A stretch of 30,076 nucleotides of DNA, from IMG/VR virus record IMGVR_UViG_3300042453_000426, positions 1 through 30,076 of that record, one strand, 5' to 3'. The DNA is from a virus. The position numbers and the translations under genes are program-made. Positions 9,341-30,076 of this stretch are shown here, piece by piece; position 1 is the stretch's first letter; every line of letters starts with the position of its first letter. The notes under the pieces were generated by a model that did no database searches, was not told where the DNA came from, and saw only the letters and a program-made list of their open reading frames with translations.

Positions 9341-10279
9341 ATGCCAAATCCAACAATTACTACAACGTATGCAGGTCAATGGGCAGGGAAATATGTTTCC
9401 GCAGCCCTACTTTCCGCACCAACTATCGAAGGTGGCGGGGTTACCGTTATGCCTAACGTAAAATTTAAAGCGGTTATCCAACGTTTGGAGACTACCGATT
9501 TCTTGAAAGATGCTACTTGCGACTTTACCCCCGTGGGTACGGTAGACCTTACCGAGCGAGTTCTTGAAGTTAAAGACCTTCAAGTAAATATGACTCTTTG
9601 TAAATCAGAGTTCCATAGAACTTGGCAGTCTATCGAAATGGGTTATTCCTCTTTCGATACTTTACCAAAATCTTTTGCTGATTATCTAATAGCTTATGCC
9701 GCTGAAAAAGTAGCAGCCGCTAACGAGATTTCTATTTGGCAGGGTTCTGCTTCTACAAGTGGTCAATTCGACGGGCTTTATTCAACTGCTTTAGCTGATA
9801 TCAACTTACCACCCGCTCAATTAGTTCCTTCGGTTGCTATTACTGCGGGTAACGTTATTGCACAAATGCAATTAGTTTACGATGCTATACCTTCTACTCT
9901 TTACGGAAAGCCCGACTTGAAAATCTATGTTTCTCAAAACGTTGCTAAAGCATACGTTGCCGCTCTTGGTGGTTTCGGATTGCTTACTAACTCTGAAGCT
10001 AACGCGGGTACTAACAACTTGGGTACACAATGGTATGCTAACGGAAGCCTTACTTTTAACGGACTTCCCGTATTTATGGCAAACGGACTTCCTGTTGACT
10101 CTATGATGGCTACAACTGTATCTAACCTTTACTTTGGATGTTCACTTTTAAGCGACACTCAAGAAGTAAGAGTAATTGATACAAGCGCTACATTGGGAGA
10201 CGATAACGTACGAATCGTTATGCGAATGGCAGCGGGTGCGCAATACGGAGTTATCGAGGACATCGTAGTTTACGGATAA
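9341..10279 (+). CDS. Major capsid protein (HK97-fold type)
   Basis: A 312-residue protein with the composition of a major capsid protein (rich in Ala, Thr, Gly, Val, few charges), lying right after protease and scaffold-like genes and followed by its own strong terminator. The central part has features common to Bacteroidetes phage capsid proteins, including EISIWQGS near residue 132 and a C-terminal GAQYGVIEDIVVYG strand. Codon use here is richer in T/C endings (GCT, TCT, CTT) than in most other genes, as expected of a very highly expressed gene. The start ATG follows an A/T-rich leader. Together these make the call secure although the fold itself is inferred. Confidence 0.85.
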   Translation: MPNPTITTTYAGQWAGKYVSAALLSAPTIEGGGVTVMPNVKFKAVIQRLETTDFLKDATCDFTPVGTVDLTERVLEVKDLQVNMTLCKSEFHRTWQSIEMGYSSFDTLPKSFADYLIAYAAEKVAAANEISIWQGSASTSGQFDGLYSTALADINLPPAQLVPSVAITAGNVIAQMQLVYDAIPSTLYGKPDLKIYVSQNVAKAYVAALGGFGLLTNSEANAGTNNLGTQWYANGSLTFNGLPVFMANGLPVDSMMATTVSNLYFGCSLLSDTQEVRVIDTSATLGDDNVRIVMRMAAGAQYGVIEDIVVYG

Positions 10280-10299
10280 TCAATAACTAAAATATAACG

Positions 10300-10329
10300 G
10301 GGTGGTGGATAAACTGCCACCCTTTTTTT
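10300..10329 (+). terminator. Rho-independent terminator after capsid gene
   Basis: GGGTGG at 10300-10305 pairs with CCACCC at 10317-10322 across an 11-base loop and is followed by seven T. It would end or reduce transcripts just after the capsid gene. Confidence 0.85.
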
Positions 10330-10916: not shown

Positions 10917-10940
10917 GAACTTTTGTTCATAGCGTAAATT

Positions 10941-10964
10941 GGGGGTTAATAGCCCCCTTTTTTA
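10941..10964 (+). terminator. Rho-independent terminator after tail-tube-like gene
   Basis: GGGGG at 10941-10945 pairs with CCCCC at 10953-10957 over a 7-base loop, followed by seven T. A longer upstream TTG-started reading of the next gene would run through this hairpin, which argues for the later ATG. Confidence 0.85.
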
Positions 10965-11331: not shown

Positions 11332-13102
11332 TATACACGTTTTACATTTAGCAGAATACCAACAACCAACGATTCAAGAATCGAAGCGCGATAATTGGGT
11401 AGAGTTCGGCGAAGATAATAATTACTTCGGTTACTTAATAGATAGGTACACTAAGTCGACCACGAATAGCGCCATTATAAACAACGTAGCGCGACTTATT
11501 TACGGAAAAGGTCTAAGCGCCTTGGACGCTTCAAGAAAGCCCAACGAATACGCTCAAATGATGACTTTATTTTCTACCGATTGCGTTCGTAAAATGGTAT
11601 TCGATAGGAAATTATTTGGTCAATTTGCTATTCAAGTACACTATAACGACAAGCACGACAAGATTCTAAAGGCTTATCATATACCCGTTAATCTATTACG
11701 CGCAGAAAAATGTAACGAAAAAGGCGAAATTACGGGTTATTATTACTCGGATAATTGGGAAGACACACGAAAATACGAACCTAAAAGGCTACCCGCGTTT
11801 GGATTCTCAAAGGAGAAAGTAGAAATCCTTTATGTAAAGCCTTACGGGGTTGGAATGAAATACTATGCCTACCCCGACTATCAAGGGGCGATACCTTACG
11901 CAGTTCTTGAAGAAGAAGTAAGCGACTACCTTATTAACGAGGTACAACACGGATTCAGCGGAACGAAGGTAATCAACTTTAACAACGGGGTCCCAAGCGA
12001 AGAACAACAAGACCTAATAGCCCAAAAGGTTATGGGTAAGTTAACGGGTTCGAAGGGAGAAAAAGTAATAGTAGCTTTTAATCAAAATTCGGAATCCAAG
12101 ACGACAATAGACGACGTACCATTAAACGACGCGCCCGACCATTATACATACCTTTCAGAAGAATGTTTAAGAAAAATAATGTTAGGACACAACGTTACTT
12201 CGCCTTTGCTTTTTGGTATTGCAAGTTCTAACGGGTTTAGTTCGAATGCAGACGAATTGCAGAACTCTTTTATTCTTTTTAATAATATGGTTATTAGACC
12301 ATTTCAAGAAGAAATATTAGAAGCCTTTGACCGCATTTTAGCGTATAACGGAATCAGTTTAAAACTATTCTTCAAGACGCTTAAACCTTTAGAATTTACC
12401 GACCTTGAAAACGCACAAACCGAAGAACAAGTAGCCGAAGAAACGGGAGCGGACACTACAGAACTAAAAGCCCAAAGTAATTTAGACAACGAAGTAGCTA
12501 CGGCACTAATTGAACTTGGCGAAGACCCTAACCCCGAATGGTTATTAGTAGACGAATACGAATTAGATTACGACACCGACGAAGCGGAAAACGAACTATT
12601 TAAAGAGCGCAAAAAAACACTTTTCGAAAAAGCGAAAAAGATAGTTTCCACGGGAGTAGCGTTTCCCAACTCAAAGAGTAAACAAGACGACGTTATAGAC
12701 GGCATTAAATTTATTACACGTTACGTTTATGCAGGAGTTACAACGGCAAAGAGTCGGGAGTTCTGTAAAAAAATGATAGCCGCAAATAAGATTTACCGAA
12801 AAGAAGACATAGAACGAATGTCCAATCAAGTGGTTAACGAAGGTTGGGGTCCAAGAGGCGCTAACACTTATTCGATTTGGTTTTACAAAGGGGGCGGTAA
12901 TTGCCACCACAGATGGAATAAACAAGTTTACGCAAGTTTTGAAGGCACGGGAATAGACGTTAATTCCCCTAACGCTAAAGTAATTGCAGGGACTAAAGCG
13001 GAAAAATTAGGCTACGTTATTAAGAACGATAAGAAGGTAGCGCAAAGACCCGTGGATATGCCGTACAACGGCTTTTTACCAACCAATAAAAGATTTAAAT
13101 AA
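11324..13102 (+). CDS. Portal protein with C-terminal extension
   Basis: The 592-residue protein has the layout of a phage portal: an N-terminal part with YGKGLSALD around residue 60, a central mixed region, and a helical crown-like segment near 290-350 ending in FNNMVIRPFQEEI. Portals form the dodecameric ring at the capsid vertex through which DNA passes. From about residue 420 there is an added domain of about 170 residues with GWGPRGANTYSIW and GGGNCHHRWNKQVYA, a Cys/His/Trp-rich motif that I associate with head-morphogenesis proteins of Bacteroidetes phages. The start overlaps the upstream gene by 8 bases and the stop overlaps the next start (TAATG). Portal identity is fairly firm; the function of the extension is unknown. 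Confidence 0.75.
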   Translation: MNNIHVLHLAEYQQPTIQESKRDNWVEFGEDNNYFGYLIDRYTKSTTNSAIINNVARLIYGKGLSALDASRKPNEYAQMMTLFSTDCVRKMVFDRKLFGQFAIQVHYNDKHDKILKAYHIPVNLLRAEKCNEKGEITGYYYSDNWEDTRKYEPKRLPAFGFSKEKVEILYVKPYGVGMKYYAYPDYQGAIPYAVLEEEVSDYLINEVQHGFSGTKVINFNNGVPSEEQQDLIAQKVMGKLTGSKGEKVIVAFNQNSESKTTIDDVPLNDAPDHYTYLSEECLRKIMLGHNVTSPLLFGIASSNGFSSNADELQNSFILFNNMVIRPFQEEILEAFDRILAYNGISLKLFFKTLKPLEFTDLENAQTEEQVAEETGADTTELKAQSNLDNEVATALIELGEDPNPEWLLVDEYELDYDTDEAENELFKERKKTLFEKAKKIVSTGVAFPNSKSKQDDVIDGIKFITRYVYAGVTTAKSREFCKKMIAANKIYRKEDIERMSNQVVNEGWGPRGANTYSIWFYKGGGNCHHRWNKQVYASFEGTGIDVNSPNAKVIAGTKAEKLGYVIKNDKKVAQRPVDMPYNGFLPTNKRFK

Positions 13103-15491: not shown

Positions 15492-16357
15492 TGAAAGTAA
15501 TTAAACACGGGCGAAATGTCCACGAACTAAAGTTAGAAGGCAAATTAGTTCACGTCGCTATGTTATCTGACATACATTGGGACAATCCACACTGCGATCG
15601 CGACCTATTAAAAAAGCATTTAGATTTCTGCAAAGAGAATGACATTCCCGTAATAATTAACGGCGATTTCTTTTGTTTGATGCAAGGGCGGGGCGATAAT
15701 AGACGTAATAAATCGGACATACGACCCGAACATAACAACGCGAGGTATTTAGATTCGATTGTAGAAACTGCCGTAGAATGGTTCGAACCTTACGCTGAAA
15801 TCATTAAAGTAATCGGATACGGAAACCACGAGACCGGAGTAATTAAATTTCAAGAAACAGACCTATTAAGAAGATTCGTAGACCTACTTAACTACAAGTG
15901 CCAAACCGAAATACATACGGGTGGGTACGGGGGTTGGATAATTGTTAAACAAAACTTCCATAGTAATTCAACAATTAGTACGAAAATAAAGTACTTTCAC
16001 GGAAGCGGCGGCGGTGGAATAGTAACAAAGGGTGCATTGAATCTTACAAGGGCTTTAGAAATGTACGAAGATATGGACGTATTTTCAATGGGACATATAC
16101 ACGAAAATAGTGGACGAAACGACCAACGCGAAGAACTGCATTTTAATTCGAAGCAAGGTTACTCAGTTAAACAAAGGGCTATTCATCTTATGCTAACGGG
16201 AACTTACAAAGAGGAATATAACGACGGATACATAGGTTGGCACGTTGAAAGAGGCGCACCGCCAAAGCCATTGGGTGGACGAATTCTTAAAATAGAAACA
16301 AAAGAAGTTAATAACTCTTTTATAAAAAACATAGATTCTTTTAAATTTCCGTTGTAA
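15491..16357 (+). CDS. Metallophosphoesterase (calcineurin-like)
   Basis: The 288-residue protein shows the ordered motifs of the calcineurin-like family: LSDIHWD near residue 26 (DxH), INGDFF near 57 (GD), GYGNHETG near 108 (GNHE) and MGHIHENSG near 203 (GHxH). These bind two metal ions and hydrolyse phosphoester bonds; substrate cannot be told. The gene begins at the last base of the spanin gene and is the last of the long late operon, directly before a terminator. Possible roles are nucleic-acid processing or destruction of a nucleotide second messenger of host defence; both are inference. Confidence 0.82.
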   Translation: MKVIKHGRNVHELKLEGKLVHVAMLSDIHWDNPHCDRDLLKKHLDFCKENDIPVIINGDFFCLMQGRGDNRRNKSDIRPEHNNARYLDSIVETAVEWFEPYAEIIKVIGYGNHETGVIKFQETDLLRRFVDLLNYKCQTEIHTGGYGGWIIVKQNFHSNSTISTKIKYFHGSGGGGIVTKGALNLTRALEMYEDMDVFSMGHIHENSGRNDQREELHFNSKQGYSVKQRAIHLMLTGTYKEEYNDGYIGWHVERGAPPKPLGGRILKIETKEVNNSFIKNIDSFKFPL

Positions 16358-17747: not shown

Positions 17748-17755
17748 TATATTTG
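17748..17755 (+). promoter_or_regulatory. -7 element of a middle promoter
   Basis: TATATTTG at 17748-17755, preceded by GT and followed by TA, like that at 20838-20845. No clear TTTG is found 19-21 bases upstream, so the -33 box is weak or replaced by an activator. Predicted start of transcription, 17760-17762, falls exactly at the first base of a stable hairpin. Confidence 0.65.
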
Positions 17756-17759
17756 TAGA

Positions 17760-17850
17760 CGATTCCTTCCGACATTATAGAATCGAAAAGAAGTTACTAA
17801 CCCTTGTAATGAAGTAGAAGTCGGAAGCTACGGATTTGCAGGGGTTTTTT
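17760..17850 (+). ncRNA. Structured RNA leader or small RNA, kissing-loop fold
   Basis: Three helices are compatible with one another. H1 pairs CGATTC (17760-17765) with GAATCG (17780-17785). H3 pairs AACCCTTG (17799-17806) with CAGGGGTT (17839-17846), one G-U pair, followed by T bases. H4, inside H3, pairs GTAG (17814-17817) with CTAC (17828-17831). The loop of H1 contains TTCCGAC (17767-17773), and the loop of H4 contains its perfect complement GTCGGAA (17820-17826), so a 7-base-pair loop-loop contact can form. With a promoter at its 5' end and a T tract at its 3' end it looks like a 90-base autonomous RNA or a riboswitch-like attenuator for the gene at 17871. I do not recognise the class. 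Confidence 0.6.
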
Positions 17851-17870
17851 ATTGATTAAAAAGTTTAGTT

Positions 17871-18053
17871 ATGGAATTAATTGCAAAGGTTGAAAGGGAA
17901 AACGAAAGTATTCAATTTATTAGAATTTCTAACAAAGGAATGTTTGTTGAAATAGAGTACACAAATTTACCCGCGTTAAGTTTTATTTTAAATAACGAAG
18001 AAGTAGAAGCGTTAAAAGATTATATTTTGCTTACTGATAAAAACGAAATATGA
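17871..18053 (+). CDS. Small protein behind the RNA leader
   Basis: A 60-residue acidic protein (begins MELIAKVERENE), mixed alpha/beta by pattern, family unknown. It starts about 20 bases after the T tract of the RNA element, so its expression, and that of the initiator gene overlapping its stop (ATGA), may be set by that element. Confidence 0.55.
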   Translation: MELIAKVERENESIQFIRISNKGMFVEIEYTNLPALSFILNNEEVEALKDYILLTDKNEI

Positions 18054-18730
18054 GCGGTTGGATTAAAATACACAGAAAGTTTTTAAGTTGGCAATGGTTT
18101 GAGAAAAGCGAAGCGGTACACTTATTTTTATACTTGTTATTAAAGGCAAACCATAAAGATTCACAATGGCAAGGAATGGACATAAAACGCGGTCAATTTA
18201 TTTCGTCTTTAGGTAAGATTTCAGCGGAAACGGGAATAAGTATTCAGACGATTAGAACCTTGTTAAATAAGTTTGAAAAGACGAACGAAATAATAGTAAA
18301 ATCAACAAACAAAAATAGCCTTATAACTATCTGTAAATATGATTGTTACCAAGACGAAACAGAAGAAACTAACAAGCCACTAACAAACAAACAACAAACA
18401 ACTAACAAACAACTAACAACAAACAAGAATAATAAGAAAGAAAAGAATGAAAAAGAACTATTATTAGACAAGTGGGTAGCATATCGAAAACAGATTAAAA
18501 AACCAATTCAAGAAGCTACACAGGAAACAATTTTAAATAAGATGCAAAACTTTACTGAAGAAGAATGTAAGTTTGTTATAAATAATTCTATCGAAAACGG
18601 TTGGCAAGGTTTATTTTGGGACAAACTACCTAAACACGAAGAAGAATTATCCGACGATATGAAGGCTTATAACTACGTTCAAAAAATGAAAAATTACATA
18701 GACACTAAAGATTACAGAAATGCTGACTAA
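18050..18730 (+). CDS. Replication initiator / replisome organiser
   Basis: A 226-residue protein built like phage replication initiators. The first 95 residues form a winged-helix-like domain (SGWIKIHRKF at the start, then ISAETGISIQTIRTLLNKFE as a helix-turn-helix). A Thr/Asn/Lys/Gln linker at about 105-130 is encoded by repeated DNA. The C-terminal part has ENGWQGLFWDKLP, seen in DnaD/O-like organisers. Its work would be to bind the origin and load the helicase encoded by the next gene, which overlaps it by 11 bases. As in lambda O, the origin may lie within this gene. Confidence 0.72.
   Translation: MSGWIKIHRKFLSWQWFEKSEAVHLFLYLLLKANHKDSQWQGMDIKRGQFISSLGKISAETGISIQTIRTLLNKFEKTNEIIVKSTNKNSLITICKYDCYQDETEETNKPLTNKQQTTNKQLTTNKNNKKEKNEKELLLDKWVAYRKQIKKPIQEATQETILNKMQNFTEEECKFVINNSIENGWQGLFWDKLPKHEEELSDDMKAYNYVQKMKNYIDTKDYRNAD
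18368..18419 (+). repeat. Iteron-like repeats, candidate origin
   Basis: The octamer ACTAACAA occurs at 18368, 18379, 18401 and 18412: spacing 11, 22 and 11 bases, with a degenerate copy (AACAACAA) at 18390 in the gap. The copies fall in two different codon frames, so the repetition is at the DNA level and not simply due to a repeated peptide. One helical turn spacing inside the initiator gene is what origin iterons look like. Low-complexity coding for a Thr/Asn/Lys linker remains possible. Confidence 0.6.
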
Positions 18731-19583
18731 ACAAGGAGATACTATTAAATACTTATTAGACTACAAAGAAGGGAAGATTAAAGAAGGGTTGGGGATAGGT
18801 TGCGGGTTAGATGACTACCTACGATTCAAACGCAAACAACTAAATATTATTTTAGGACACGATAATGTCGGAAAAACATATTGGATTAATTGGTACTTCC
18901 TTGTATTGGCATTAAAACACGGGTTAAAGTTCTGTTTGTGGAGCGGTGAAAATCAAAAAGGACAAATATTAAGAGACTTAATACAGATGTATGCGGGTGA
19001 ACCATTTAAAAACCTAACTGCCCAACAGATTCAAAGTTACTTGGGTTATTTAGAGCAATTTTTTTACTTCGTGGATAACTCAAAACTTTATAAGCCGTTG
19101 GAACTTTTGACCATATTTGAAAATTCGGGGTGCGACGTTGCGTTAATTGACCCTTTTACGGGGTTAGATAGGGAAATGACATACGAAGGGAACTACACTT
19201 TTATGAATAAAGCCCGTGAGTTCGTTAATCGTACGGGTATGACTATCTATATTAACACGCACCCTAATACGGAAAGTGGACGAAGTGGCAATTTATATAC
19301 CGAAGGAGATTGGAAAGGACACCTTAAACCCCCTTTAAAAGACCACATAGAAGGCGGGAAGGCTTTTCTGAATCGTTGCGACGATATGTTTGTTATTCAC
19401 CGGTTAATAAAACACGAAGAAATGAAGTACAAAACTATGGTAGGAGTAGAAAAAGTTAAGGATATGGACACGGGCGGTAAGCACACGGGGTTAAACGAAC
19501 AGGTTTTATGTAATTTTAACTACGGATTAGGCTTTGAAGTGTACGGAGTTAACCCAATAGAAGTAATAAAACACGGATTTTAA
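18720..19583 (+). CDS. DnaB/RecA-type helicase ATPase
   Basis: A 287-residue RecA-fold ATPase: GHDNVGKT at 46-53 is the Walker A motif, Glu77 in LWSGENQ fits the catalytic Glu place, VALIDPFTGL (Asp144) is Walker B, and INTHP (His181) is the following sensor-like strand. This matches the C-terminal motor of DnaB-type replicative helicases without the N-terminal primase-contact domain, common in phages that use the host primase and polymerase. It follows the initiator gene with an 11-base overlap. A RecA/KaiC-like recombination ATPase is the alternative, but the neighbour favours helicase. Confidence 0.72.
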   Translation: MLTKQGDTIKYLLDYKEGKIKEGLGIGCGLDDYLRFKRKQLNIILGHDNVGKTYWINWYFLVLALKHGLKFCLWSGENQKGQILRDLIQMYAGEPFKNLTAQQIQSYLGYLEQFFYFVDNSKLYKPLELLTIFENSGCDVALIDPFTGLDREMTYEGNYTFMNKAREFVNRTGMTIYINTHPNTESGRSGNLYTEGDWKGHLKPPLKDHIEGGKAFLNRCDDMFVIHRLIKHEEMKYKTMVGVEKVKDMDTGGKHTGLNEQVLCNFNYGLGFEVYGVNPIEVIKHGF

Positions 19584-24059: not shown

Positions 24060-24590
24060 ATGGAATGGCTTAACATAGTAGCAAAAGACCACAAAGAATG
24101 GGTAAAAGTCGTCGAATCTTTCGGCGAAGATTTTTTTGCTGAAGATATTGTACAAGAAGCCTACTTACGAATTTATAAGTATTGCCAACCCGAAAACATA
24201 ATAAAGAATGGTCAAGTCAATAAAGGATTTATGTATTTTACTCTTCGCAATCTTTACCTTCTTCATTTACGCAGTAATTCACGATTGGAAAAAGTCCCGC
24301 TCGAACAAGTCCAAGTAAAAGACGAACCAAGCGAAATGGAGAAAGAAGAAGCCTACTATAAGTTATTAATGAAGATACAAGACGAGGTGGATAGTTGGCA
24401 TTGGTACGACCAAAAACTATTCGAAGTTTATAAGGATACGGATTTAAGTATTAGAGACATAGCCAAAGAAACTACTATTTCAAGCAGTTCGATTTTCAAC
24501 ACGTTAAAAAACTGCAAGGCAAAGATAAGAGAAGCCGTTGGCGAAGAATACGAGGACTACAAAAACACGGATTTTGAATTAATAAAATGA
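24060..24590 (+). CDS. Sigma-70/ECF-like sigma factor
   Basis: A 176-residue protein with the layout of a small sigma factor: a region 2-like helix set (DIVQEAYLRIYKY near 29-41, then FMYFTLRNLYLLHL) and a region 4-like helix-turn-helix near 128-165 (LSIRDIAKETTISSSSIFNTL). It has its own promoter and lies upstream of the terminase and structural genes, where few TAnnTTTG boxes are seen, so it may direct host RNA polymerase to late promoters. The acidic insert at 85-100 replaces the usual linker. A plain DNA-binding regulator is possible, but the region 2 motif favours sigma. Confidence 0.65.
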   Translation: MEWLNIVAKDHKEWVKVVESFGEDFFAEDIVQEAYLRIYKYCQPENIIKNGQVNKGFMYFTLRNLYLLHLRSNSRLEKVPLEQVQVKDEPSEMEKEEAYYKLLMKIQDEVDSWHWYDQKLFEVYKDTDLSIRDIAKETTISSSSIFNTLKNCKAKIREAVGEEYEDYKNTDFELIK

Positions 24591-29368: not shown

Positions 29369-29901
29369 TGGAAAAGGAACGGCAATTAGAAGCGTTAAAA
29401 ATATTCCGCGACCACGTTATACAAGAAGCGCGAAATAACCTTTCCACGAAAAATAGTACGGGTAGTCTTCAACAGAGTTTAGAAGGTGAAGTAGCCGTTA
29501 ACCCCAATTCGATAACCCTTTACTTCGAGATGTTAGAATACGGTTTTTACCAAGACCGCGGGGTTAGGGGTGTCAAGTCGGGACGTAGTTTAAGCGACTT
29601 CCAATTTGGCACGGGAACGGGAACGGAAGGCGGGTTAACCAAAGGCATAAAAGAATGGGTTAAACGTAAGGGAATAAAGTTCCGCGACAAGCGAGGAAAG
29701 TTTATTAGTTACGATATGACTGCCAAATTTATAATAAGGTCAATTTGGAATCGTGGTATAAAACCAAGCCTTTTTTTTACAACACCTTTTGAAAAAGCAT
29801 TTAAGAATTTACCCGACGAAATGGTAGAACTATACGGATTAGAAGCCGAAGAATTATTTGACACAATAATGAAAGAAAATTTTAAAAATTATGGCGATTA
29901 A
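29368..29901 (+). CDS. Tail completion (HK97 gp10-like) protein, complete copy
   Basis: The ATG at 29368 overlaps the upstream stop (TAATG), giving 177 residues; a TTG two codons earlier is less likely. This is the full version of the protein truncated at the start of the window. An N-terminal helix (RQLEALKIFRDHVIQEARNN) is followed by a basic, Gly-rich region and RSIWNRGIKPSLFFTTPFEK. Proteins of this kind occupy the neck or tail-completion place in siphophages. It differs from the other copy at seven residues, all outside the most conserved stretches. Confidence 0.6.
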   Translation: MEKERQLEALKIFRDHVIQEARNNLSTKNSTGSLQQSLEGEVAVNPNSITLYFEMLEYGFYQDRGVRGVKSGRSLSDFQFGTGTGTEGGLTKGIKEWVKRKGIKFRDKRGKFISYDMTAKFIIRSIWNRGIKPSLFFTTPFEKAFKNLPDEMVELYGLEAEELFDTIMKENFKNYGD

Positions 29902-30076
29902 TAGAATATTTGCACGAAGCCCCTATATTGTGGAAATTAACCAACCTACCCAAGAAGGTAGCAAGGTAGAATTGTATATTTATCAAAATGGAAACCCGCC
30001 CCCAATAGCACCAAGTTACACGTTGGAGAAACTGATTCCTGCAAGTAACAACACCCAAACCCTTTACAATATTTCG
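29497..30076. repeat. Terminal near-repeat, copy B
   Basis: Gap-free second copy of bases 1-580 with about 32 substitutions confined to 29624-29989. It includes the 3' three quarters of the tail-completion gene and the first 186 bases of the tail protein gene. Confidence 0.95.
29891..30076 (+). CDS. Putative tail structural protein, 3'-truncated copy
   Basis: The first 62 codons of the gene that is complete at 395-1495, cut by the window end. It differs at one residue (YIV for YII near position 13) and at several silent sites. It starts 11 bases inside the upstream gene as in the other copy. Confidence 0.65.
   Translation, partial: MAINRIFARSPYIVEINQPTQEGSKVELYIYQNGNPPPIAPSYTLEKLIPASNNTQTLYNIS

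Follow-up and report, generated by a model that had tools for sequence, protein, structure and literature searches.

A phage RNA element with a conserved loop-loop contact and a built-in terminator, probably a cis-acting leader of replication genes

A phage record from the IMG/VR virus collection with a length of 30,076 bases (the window, i.e., the whole stretch of DNA analyzed here) contains a structured RNA element in which two hairpin loops are paired with each other, that of a hairpin at the predicted 5′ end and the apical one of an intrinsic terminator. As comparison of homologues demonstrates, this fold is conserved, and RNA, fold, and terminator are under selection. The element, which is present in many viruses of flavobacteria, is probably a 5′ leader that acts in cis and contains an intrinsic terminator of its own; it is usually located before replication genes, and the loop-loop contact would tune read-through.

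The element in the window

The window probably represents one circularly permuted genome of about 29.5 kb, assembled from mixed strains, as its ends (1-580 and 29497-30076) consist of the same 580 bp with 94.5% identity, 32 mismatches, and no gaps. The closest named phage, judged by the helicase, has an identity of only about 30%. Upstream of the element, an ORF matches Pfam Bac_DnaA_C slightly below the cut-off of 31.5 bits (E 2.8e-07, 30.9 bits), and genes for replication proteins follow downstream (Table 1), where NinG is also encoded. Iteron-like repeats with a period of 11 (AACTAACAAAC, 4.8 copies, 18367-18419) lie within the DnaD-like gene and are a candidate replication origin. A further ORF (24060-24590), located directly 3′ of a TATATTTG promoter, has weak matches to sigma-70 region 2 and YlxM-like proteins and possibly encodes a late-gene regulator.

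Table 1. Positions of the element, its parts, and the adjacent genes in the window
Feature	Position	Strand	Remarks
ORF with DnaA-type C-terminal helix-turn-helix	17322..17741	+	upstream of element; Pfam Bac_DnaA_C
Promoter -7 element TATATTTG	17748..17755	+	exact fit to Flavobacterium TAHHTTTG consensus
P1 hairpin	17760..17785	+	CGATTC/GAATCG, 17760-17765 with 17780-17785; begins at predicted +1
Loop 1, 14 nt	17766-17779	+	apical loop of P1
Loop 1 pairing strand CTTCCGAC	17766..17773	+	partner 17820-17827
Loop 1 3′ part, A-rich, unpaired ATTATA	17774..17779	+	consensus AYHATA; invariant positions in alignment
Linker	17786..17798	+	AAG and UUAYU conserved in alignment
P2 terminator stem	17799..17846	+	17799-17809 with 17836-17846, 11 bp
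Internal loop UGAA	17810..17813	+	faces GGAU 17832-17835; near invariant in alignment; joins P3 to P2
P3	17814..17831	+	GTAG/CTAC, 17814-17817 with 17828-17831
Loop 2 pairing strand GTCGGAAG	17820..17827	+	in P3 loop; loop-loop partner of 17766-17773
T tract TTTTTT of intrinsic terminator	17845..17850	+	P2 runs into T tract
First ORF past terminator, 60 aa	17871..18053	+	start codon 20 nt from T tract
DnaD-like helicase loader / replication initiator	18050..18730	+	PHROG 2514, E 1e-30
DnaB-like / primase-helicase-type replicative helicase	18720..19583	+	PHROG 239, E 2.2e-19; PHROG 19, E 6.3e-08

An initial sequence-only reading of this region had proposed a promoter-driven RNA starting at P1, and its coordinates for promoter box, hairpins, and helices are all correct. 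In the Flavobacterium -7 consensus TAHHTTTG, the first base corresponds to position -12 and the last to -5 (PMC6847099). TATATTTG, which occurs four times in the window, with every copy on the + strand and in the early region, would span these positions, so that +1 is predicted at 17760, the first base of P1, in support of the proposed start. The loop-loop contact, which had been given as 7 bp, is real and comprises 8 bp (CTTCCGAC with GTCGGAAG), and the outer helix, described as 8 bp (17799-17806 with 17839-17846), is present and extends to 11 bp. Loop 2 is the apical loop of the terminator hairpin. A minimal ATG-AAG-TAG frame (17809-17817), which had been noted in the joining segment, is present in the window, but its role as a part of the design is not supported. 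Homologues retain ATGAA as sequence of the internal loop and do not retain the stop codon, so that there is no conservation as an ORF. A second, weak match (16292-16322) lies within the end of a coding gene, consists mostly of linker-like sequence, and was treated as a chance match.

Comparative support and distribution among phages

When the window sequence is folded alone, its stability is not unusual (z = -0.93), and the significance of the element thus rests on the comparison of homologues. These were found via the helicase protein or via the promoter together with the conserved unpaired bases, with no use of the loop sequences. In the alignment used for the covariation test (A1; 40 distinct RNAs, 27 pairs), 97.9% of the cells are paired compared with 72.8% after shuffling, and the covariation score is 0.727 compared with 0.233 after shuffling and at most 0.123 with slid partners. 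Shuffles were lower in paired cells, double-change cells, and covariation score, and the slid versions were all far lower.

The three proposed helices and the loop-loop contact are each supported by covariation in these 40 homologues. The loop-loop helix is paired in 100% of the cells and has double compensatory changes, which the sequence-only reading had suggested searching for in relatives, at six of its eight pairs, the remaining two being invariant, and no one-sided change. It is devoid of G-U pairs in all 40 homologues and seems to need strict Watson-Crick pairing. P1 and P3 are paired in 99.5% and 96.9% of the cells, with double changes at five of five and four of four pairs, respectively. 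In P2 (95.8% of the cells paired, double changes at seven of ten pairs) G-U pairs are common, which points to pairing as RNA. In a blind corrected-covariation ranking of all column pairs, the top 13 are pairs of the structure, headed by a loop-loop pair. These data would fit loop pairing within one molecule as well as between two alike. A competing antiterminator helix that covaries was not found in the 40 sequences, the invariant segments of which are not assessable by covariation. A classical two-state attenuator is thus unlikely, and any control would be exerted via the tertiary contact, kinetics, or a factor.

The architecture was also found in a sample for which loci were picked solely by two replication-protein families: it is present in 66 of 124 distinct upstream regions, whereas shuffling leaves it in 0-3 of 124 and windows taken from elsewhere have it in 2 of 372 cases. 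When all viral loci were scanned with the promoter as anchor, 196 elements were obtained, 190 of them with an ORF within 70 nt, and about 64 loop sequences, a diversity that illustrates the class and is not a covariation test, as the scan requires loop complementarity. Bacterial-genome control loci gave four elements per 1.48 Mb, according to which perhaps 8% of the 196 elements are due to chance. In subtype 2, both loops comprise 6 bases (GUGCAG and CUGCAC), and a scan for the architecture only, irrespective of sequence, retrieved compensated loop variants such as GGGCAG/CTGCCC and GAGCAG/CTGCTC. At two loci (L496 and L497), the identical loop pair is swapped. About eight contigs or genomes carry two elements with unlike loop sequences, each before its own ORF (L117, L119, L173, L179, L346, L425, L428, L516/L522). 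In L119, L173, L346, and Flavobacterium phage tooticki6-1, one of the two elements (the second one in tooticki6-1) precedes an endonuclease-like gene. Regarding a host or prophage origin, 98 pattern matches were obtained in genome_contigs; for the 80 of them that were tested, the model did not reach significance (best E 0.16), and these 80 are thus considered chance matches.

Among cultured phages, the element is located upstream of the replication region in the Flavobacterium phages tooticki6-1 and hemulen9-1 (loop pair GTGAGACG/CGTCTCAC), elemoA 1-9A (TGAGAGC/GCTCTCA), and 11b (CGGGCAGG/CCTGCCCG). Cellulophaga phage phi19:3 has the loop pairing and a terminator upstream of the replication protein, with the 5′ hairpin not confirmed. 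Whole-genome scans found two elements in tooticki6-1 (36.9 kb; positions 11590 and 12625 of MN812240), one in 11b (36.0 kb), and one in the window, while five shuffles of each gave 0, 2, and 0 matches, respectively. The gene order in tooticki (DnaA-type helix-turn-helix, further genes, elements, small ORF, replication protein, primase, NinG-type protein) resembles that of the window. For the Baltic Flavobacterium phages, no lysogeny genes have been reported, and small RNA, ncRNA, and terminators do not come up in a word search of the respective paper (PMC7077304). As lytic cultured phages with known Flavobacterium hosts carry the element (e.g., tooticki6-1 with Flavobacterium sp. LMO6 and elemoA with strain BAL314), it can be studied at the bench.

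Leaders of other types were observed as well. Upstream of a MERDSM-type gene (L417, L419, L426, L427, L429, L430, L433-L436), a different leader contains a short conserved ORF like MKNILNPIFTALP* and then a terminator, with complementarity between the loop side of the terminator and the leader's 5′ end (e.g., GCGTACCCT/AGGGTACGC); this leader looks like a leader-peptide attenuator. In another leader with promoter and terminator (L300, L301, L332, L340), the 5′-end sequence AAGTGCAG pairs with CTGCACTT, which lies immediately upstream of the T tract.

Genomic arrangement and possible function

Of 105 distinct homologues, 102 have a run of at least six T residues behind P2, although the search pattern did not require it, compared with 2.2% of the control windows. 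P1 starts 4-5 nt past TTTG in 89 of the 105 homologues and 3-6 nt past it in 102, the other three having a distance of 13-14 nt; with the first T of the box at -12 and its G at -5, P1 would thus open at about +1/+2. A same-strand ORF follows the T tract at a median distance of 19 nt (range 0-44) in 135 of 135 type 1/2 contexts, which were gathered with patterns that include the T run. This spacing leaves the hairpin outside the region from -20 to +20 around the start codon, which tends to be unpaired in F. johnsoniae (PMC6847099). The proteins encoded downstream belong to 18 unrelated clusters. A further TAHHTTTG between element and start codon is missing in 130 of the 135 contexts, whereas 79 of 115 other intergenic terminators on the same contigs have such a box before the next ORF; of the 36 terminators without it, some follow a virion-protein gene. 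Therefore, the genes downstream of the element are most simply read by read-through of its terminator. The arrangement is that of an attenuator leader, i.e., a promoter, a leader, a G+C-rich hairpin with T tract, and a gene lacking its own promoter.

Two strong terminators in the window (10298-10329 and 10940-10963), located downstream of an ORF with a weak virion-structural PHROG match (9341-10279), also have no promoter before the next gene and are likely leaky intra-operon terminators. As promoterless terminators with short gaps also occur in the structural operon, a terminator before a gene is by itself no proof of regulation.

That the element acts in cis as a 5′ leader, and that the downstream gene needs read-through, is strongly supported by its genomic distribution: it is always located a short distance before a gene, the kind of gene differs from case to case, and where a genome has two elements their loops are unrelated. 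Transcription would start at the base of P1, the loop of which would pair with the apical loop of the terminator as the latter leaves RNA polymerase, so that the terminator would be made within a compact loop-loop fold. Part of the transcription would stop at the T tract, resulting in an RNA of about 90 nt, and the remainder would read through into the gene starting about 19 nt later. By setting the terminated fraction, the loop contact would determine the timing or dose of replication proteins. The contact presumably alters termination, and a trans factor may be involved. According to a length estimate, loop 2 would be out of the polymerase at about the time when the 3′ side of P2 is made, and contact and P2 closure would thus form in the same short interval. 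The fully closed form is perhaps under tension, given 13-15 linker bases, in which case the contact would favor read-through; this direction of the effect is a guess, for which there is a slight preference. A more far-reaching proposal is rather doubtful, namely that the tertiary contact alone, with neither an alternative helix nor a protein, sets read-through into the replication genes, the 5′-end hairpin capturing the terminator loop of the same transcript in a large phage-borne RNA class defined by its architecture. If the loop contact controls termination, tertiary structure would regulate this terminator, and the roughly 60 loop pairs found in nature might serve as parts. The element would also bear on replication timing in these phages, a little-known matter.

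The sequence-only reading had considered both an attenuator and a small RNA. The attenuator-like place before replication genes stands, whereas a stand-alone small RNA is disfavored by the genomic arrangement. As such an RNA, the terminated product of about 90 nt would act in trans, its target being an RNA or a protein of host or phage, and the downstream genes would depend on incidental read-through. Its own promoter, the 5′ end within P1, and the strong terminator would result in a compact, protected RNA, and a P1 that begins at +1 would fit a stable mature RNA as well. A position independent of a co-oriented downstream gene, as would be typical of a stand-alone RNA, was not found (ORF directly downstream in 135/135 contexts and in 190/196 elements). 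Furthermore, the loops are mutually paired in every aligned homologue, so that neither is a free seed, and the two elements of a genome differ in their loop sequences. Extra copies of loop 1 are located just before the start codon in subtype 2a (eight listed contigs) and in L070, L079, L124, and L182, but copies of at least 6 bases are limited to 4 of the 106 leader/loop combinations of type 1 and 6 of the 18 of type 2. Inspection of the contigs for loop 1 and loop 2 heptamers revealed no recurrent site beyond the start-codon copies. General trans targets were rejected, as extra loop 1 copies near start codons are found in a minority only. Thus, a stand-alone small RNA is unlikely, and a leaky terminator behind a promoter would also yield a small RNA with a possible additional function in trans. 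The copies themselves (L307, L310, L327, L331, L325, L334, L298, and L346, with the four loci named above) read GTGCAG 10-11 nt before the downstream ATG or CTTCGAC directly before the start, and loop 2 could pair with them instead of loop 1.

Still less probable is an RNA-only antiterminator like HK022 put, in which the loop-loop fold would, on emerging, bind RNA polymerase and enable it to pass the terminator of the element as well as later ones. The element does have two hairpins immediately behind an early promoter and before early genes, and the unpaired bases that are conserved in its loop 1, its linker, and its internal loop could form a binding surface. However, its second hairpin is itself a terminator, unlike in put, and freely varying loop sequences are hard to explain for a polymerase-binding RNA. 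Pairing of loop 1 with loop 2 of another molecule in a dimer or ring, either in a structural RNA or for dose sensing with terminated RNAs and nascent leaders as partners, is very improbable: the complementarity would permit it equally well, and a rough estimate (A-form rise, about 31 stacked layers, linker of 13-15 nt) leaves the linker nearly taut in the closed intramolecular form, but the linker seems long enough for a contact within one molecule, the element is always found as a leader before a gene, and there is no link to packaging, the terminase gene being 9 kb distant.

Comparison with known systems

The sequence-only reading could not assign the element to a class, and the comparison with Rfam that it had suggested matched no family. 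Rfam 15 gave no matches in the window at gathering thresholds and chance-level matches only at a relaxed threshold, and for 20 further loci including other subtypes it gave tRNAs only. In a literature search, for which subscription journals were mostly out of reach, no description of the element was found. The element is regarded here as a new RNA family and a new variation on the leader/terminator arrangement: supported by covariation and absent from Rfam, it is present at about 200 sampled loci of Bacteroidota-type phages.

In purine-type and other kissing-loop riboswitches, a three-way junction joins the kissing loops, the sequence of which is conserved. These riboswitches resemble the element in having a loop-loop contact beside a terminator expression platform, but the loops of the element vary freely, and it has no junction and no Rfam match. 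Nothing links it to a ligand, and the initially suggested riboswitch likeness is thus not supported in the strict sense. In phi29 pRNA, loops pair between molecules, which is a likeness only to the intermolecular reading of the element.

In phage lambda, the early promoter pR is followed by the RNA control element nutR, the terminator tR1, and the replication genes O/P. The order of the element and its surroundings is similar, and the window also encodes NinG. Whereas lambda nut RNA is a small boxA/boxB element with no kissing pair and requires N protein and Nus factors, the element has a kissing pair. A further possible likeness concerns the lambda origin inside gene O and the iteron-like repeats inside the DnaD-like gene of the window.

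In the pT181 repC attenuator, the kissing partner is an antisense RNA that acts on a competing antiterminator (PMC5435934). The repC leader shares with the element its position upstream of a replication gene, an intrinsic terminator, and kissing hairpins. In contrast to the separate antisense RNA of pT181, the partner in the element is part of the same RNA, and there is no competing covarying helix. Antisense control of the pT181 type was rejected, as antisense promoters are not enriched (antisense TAHHTTTG downstream in 17% of the loci versus 12% of the controls).

The put sites of HK022 (putL, putR) are, like the element, short two-hairpin RNAs near a phage early promoter that act in cis before early genes. 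The RNA of putL, which is located just downstream of PL, comprises about 70 nt with two stem-loops and begins with A3 in the structure, and put binds the zinc-binding domain of the RNA polymerase β′ subunit (PMC9378689). Loop-loop pairing, which the element has, is not among the features described there, and the second hairpin of put has no terminator, whereas that of the element is one. Taken together, the element would work most like HK022 put and the pT181 leader; it lacks the antisense partner and the competing helix that define the latter, and its likeness to put lies in the arrangement.
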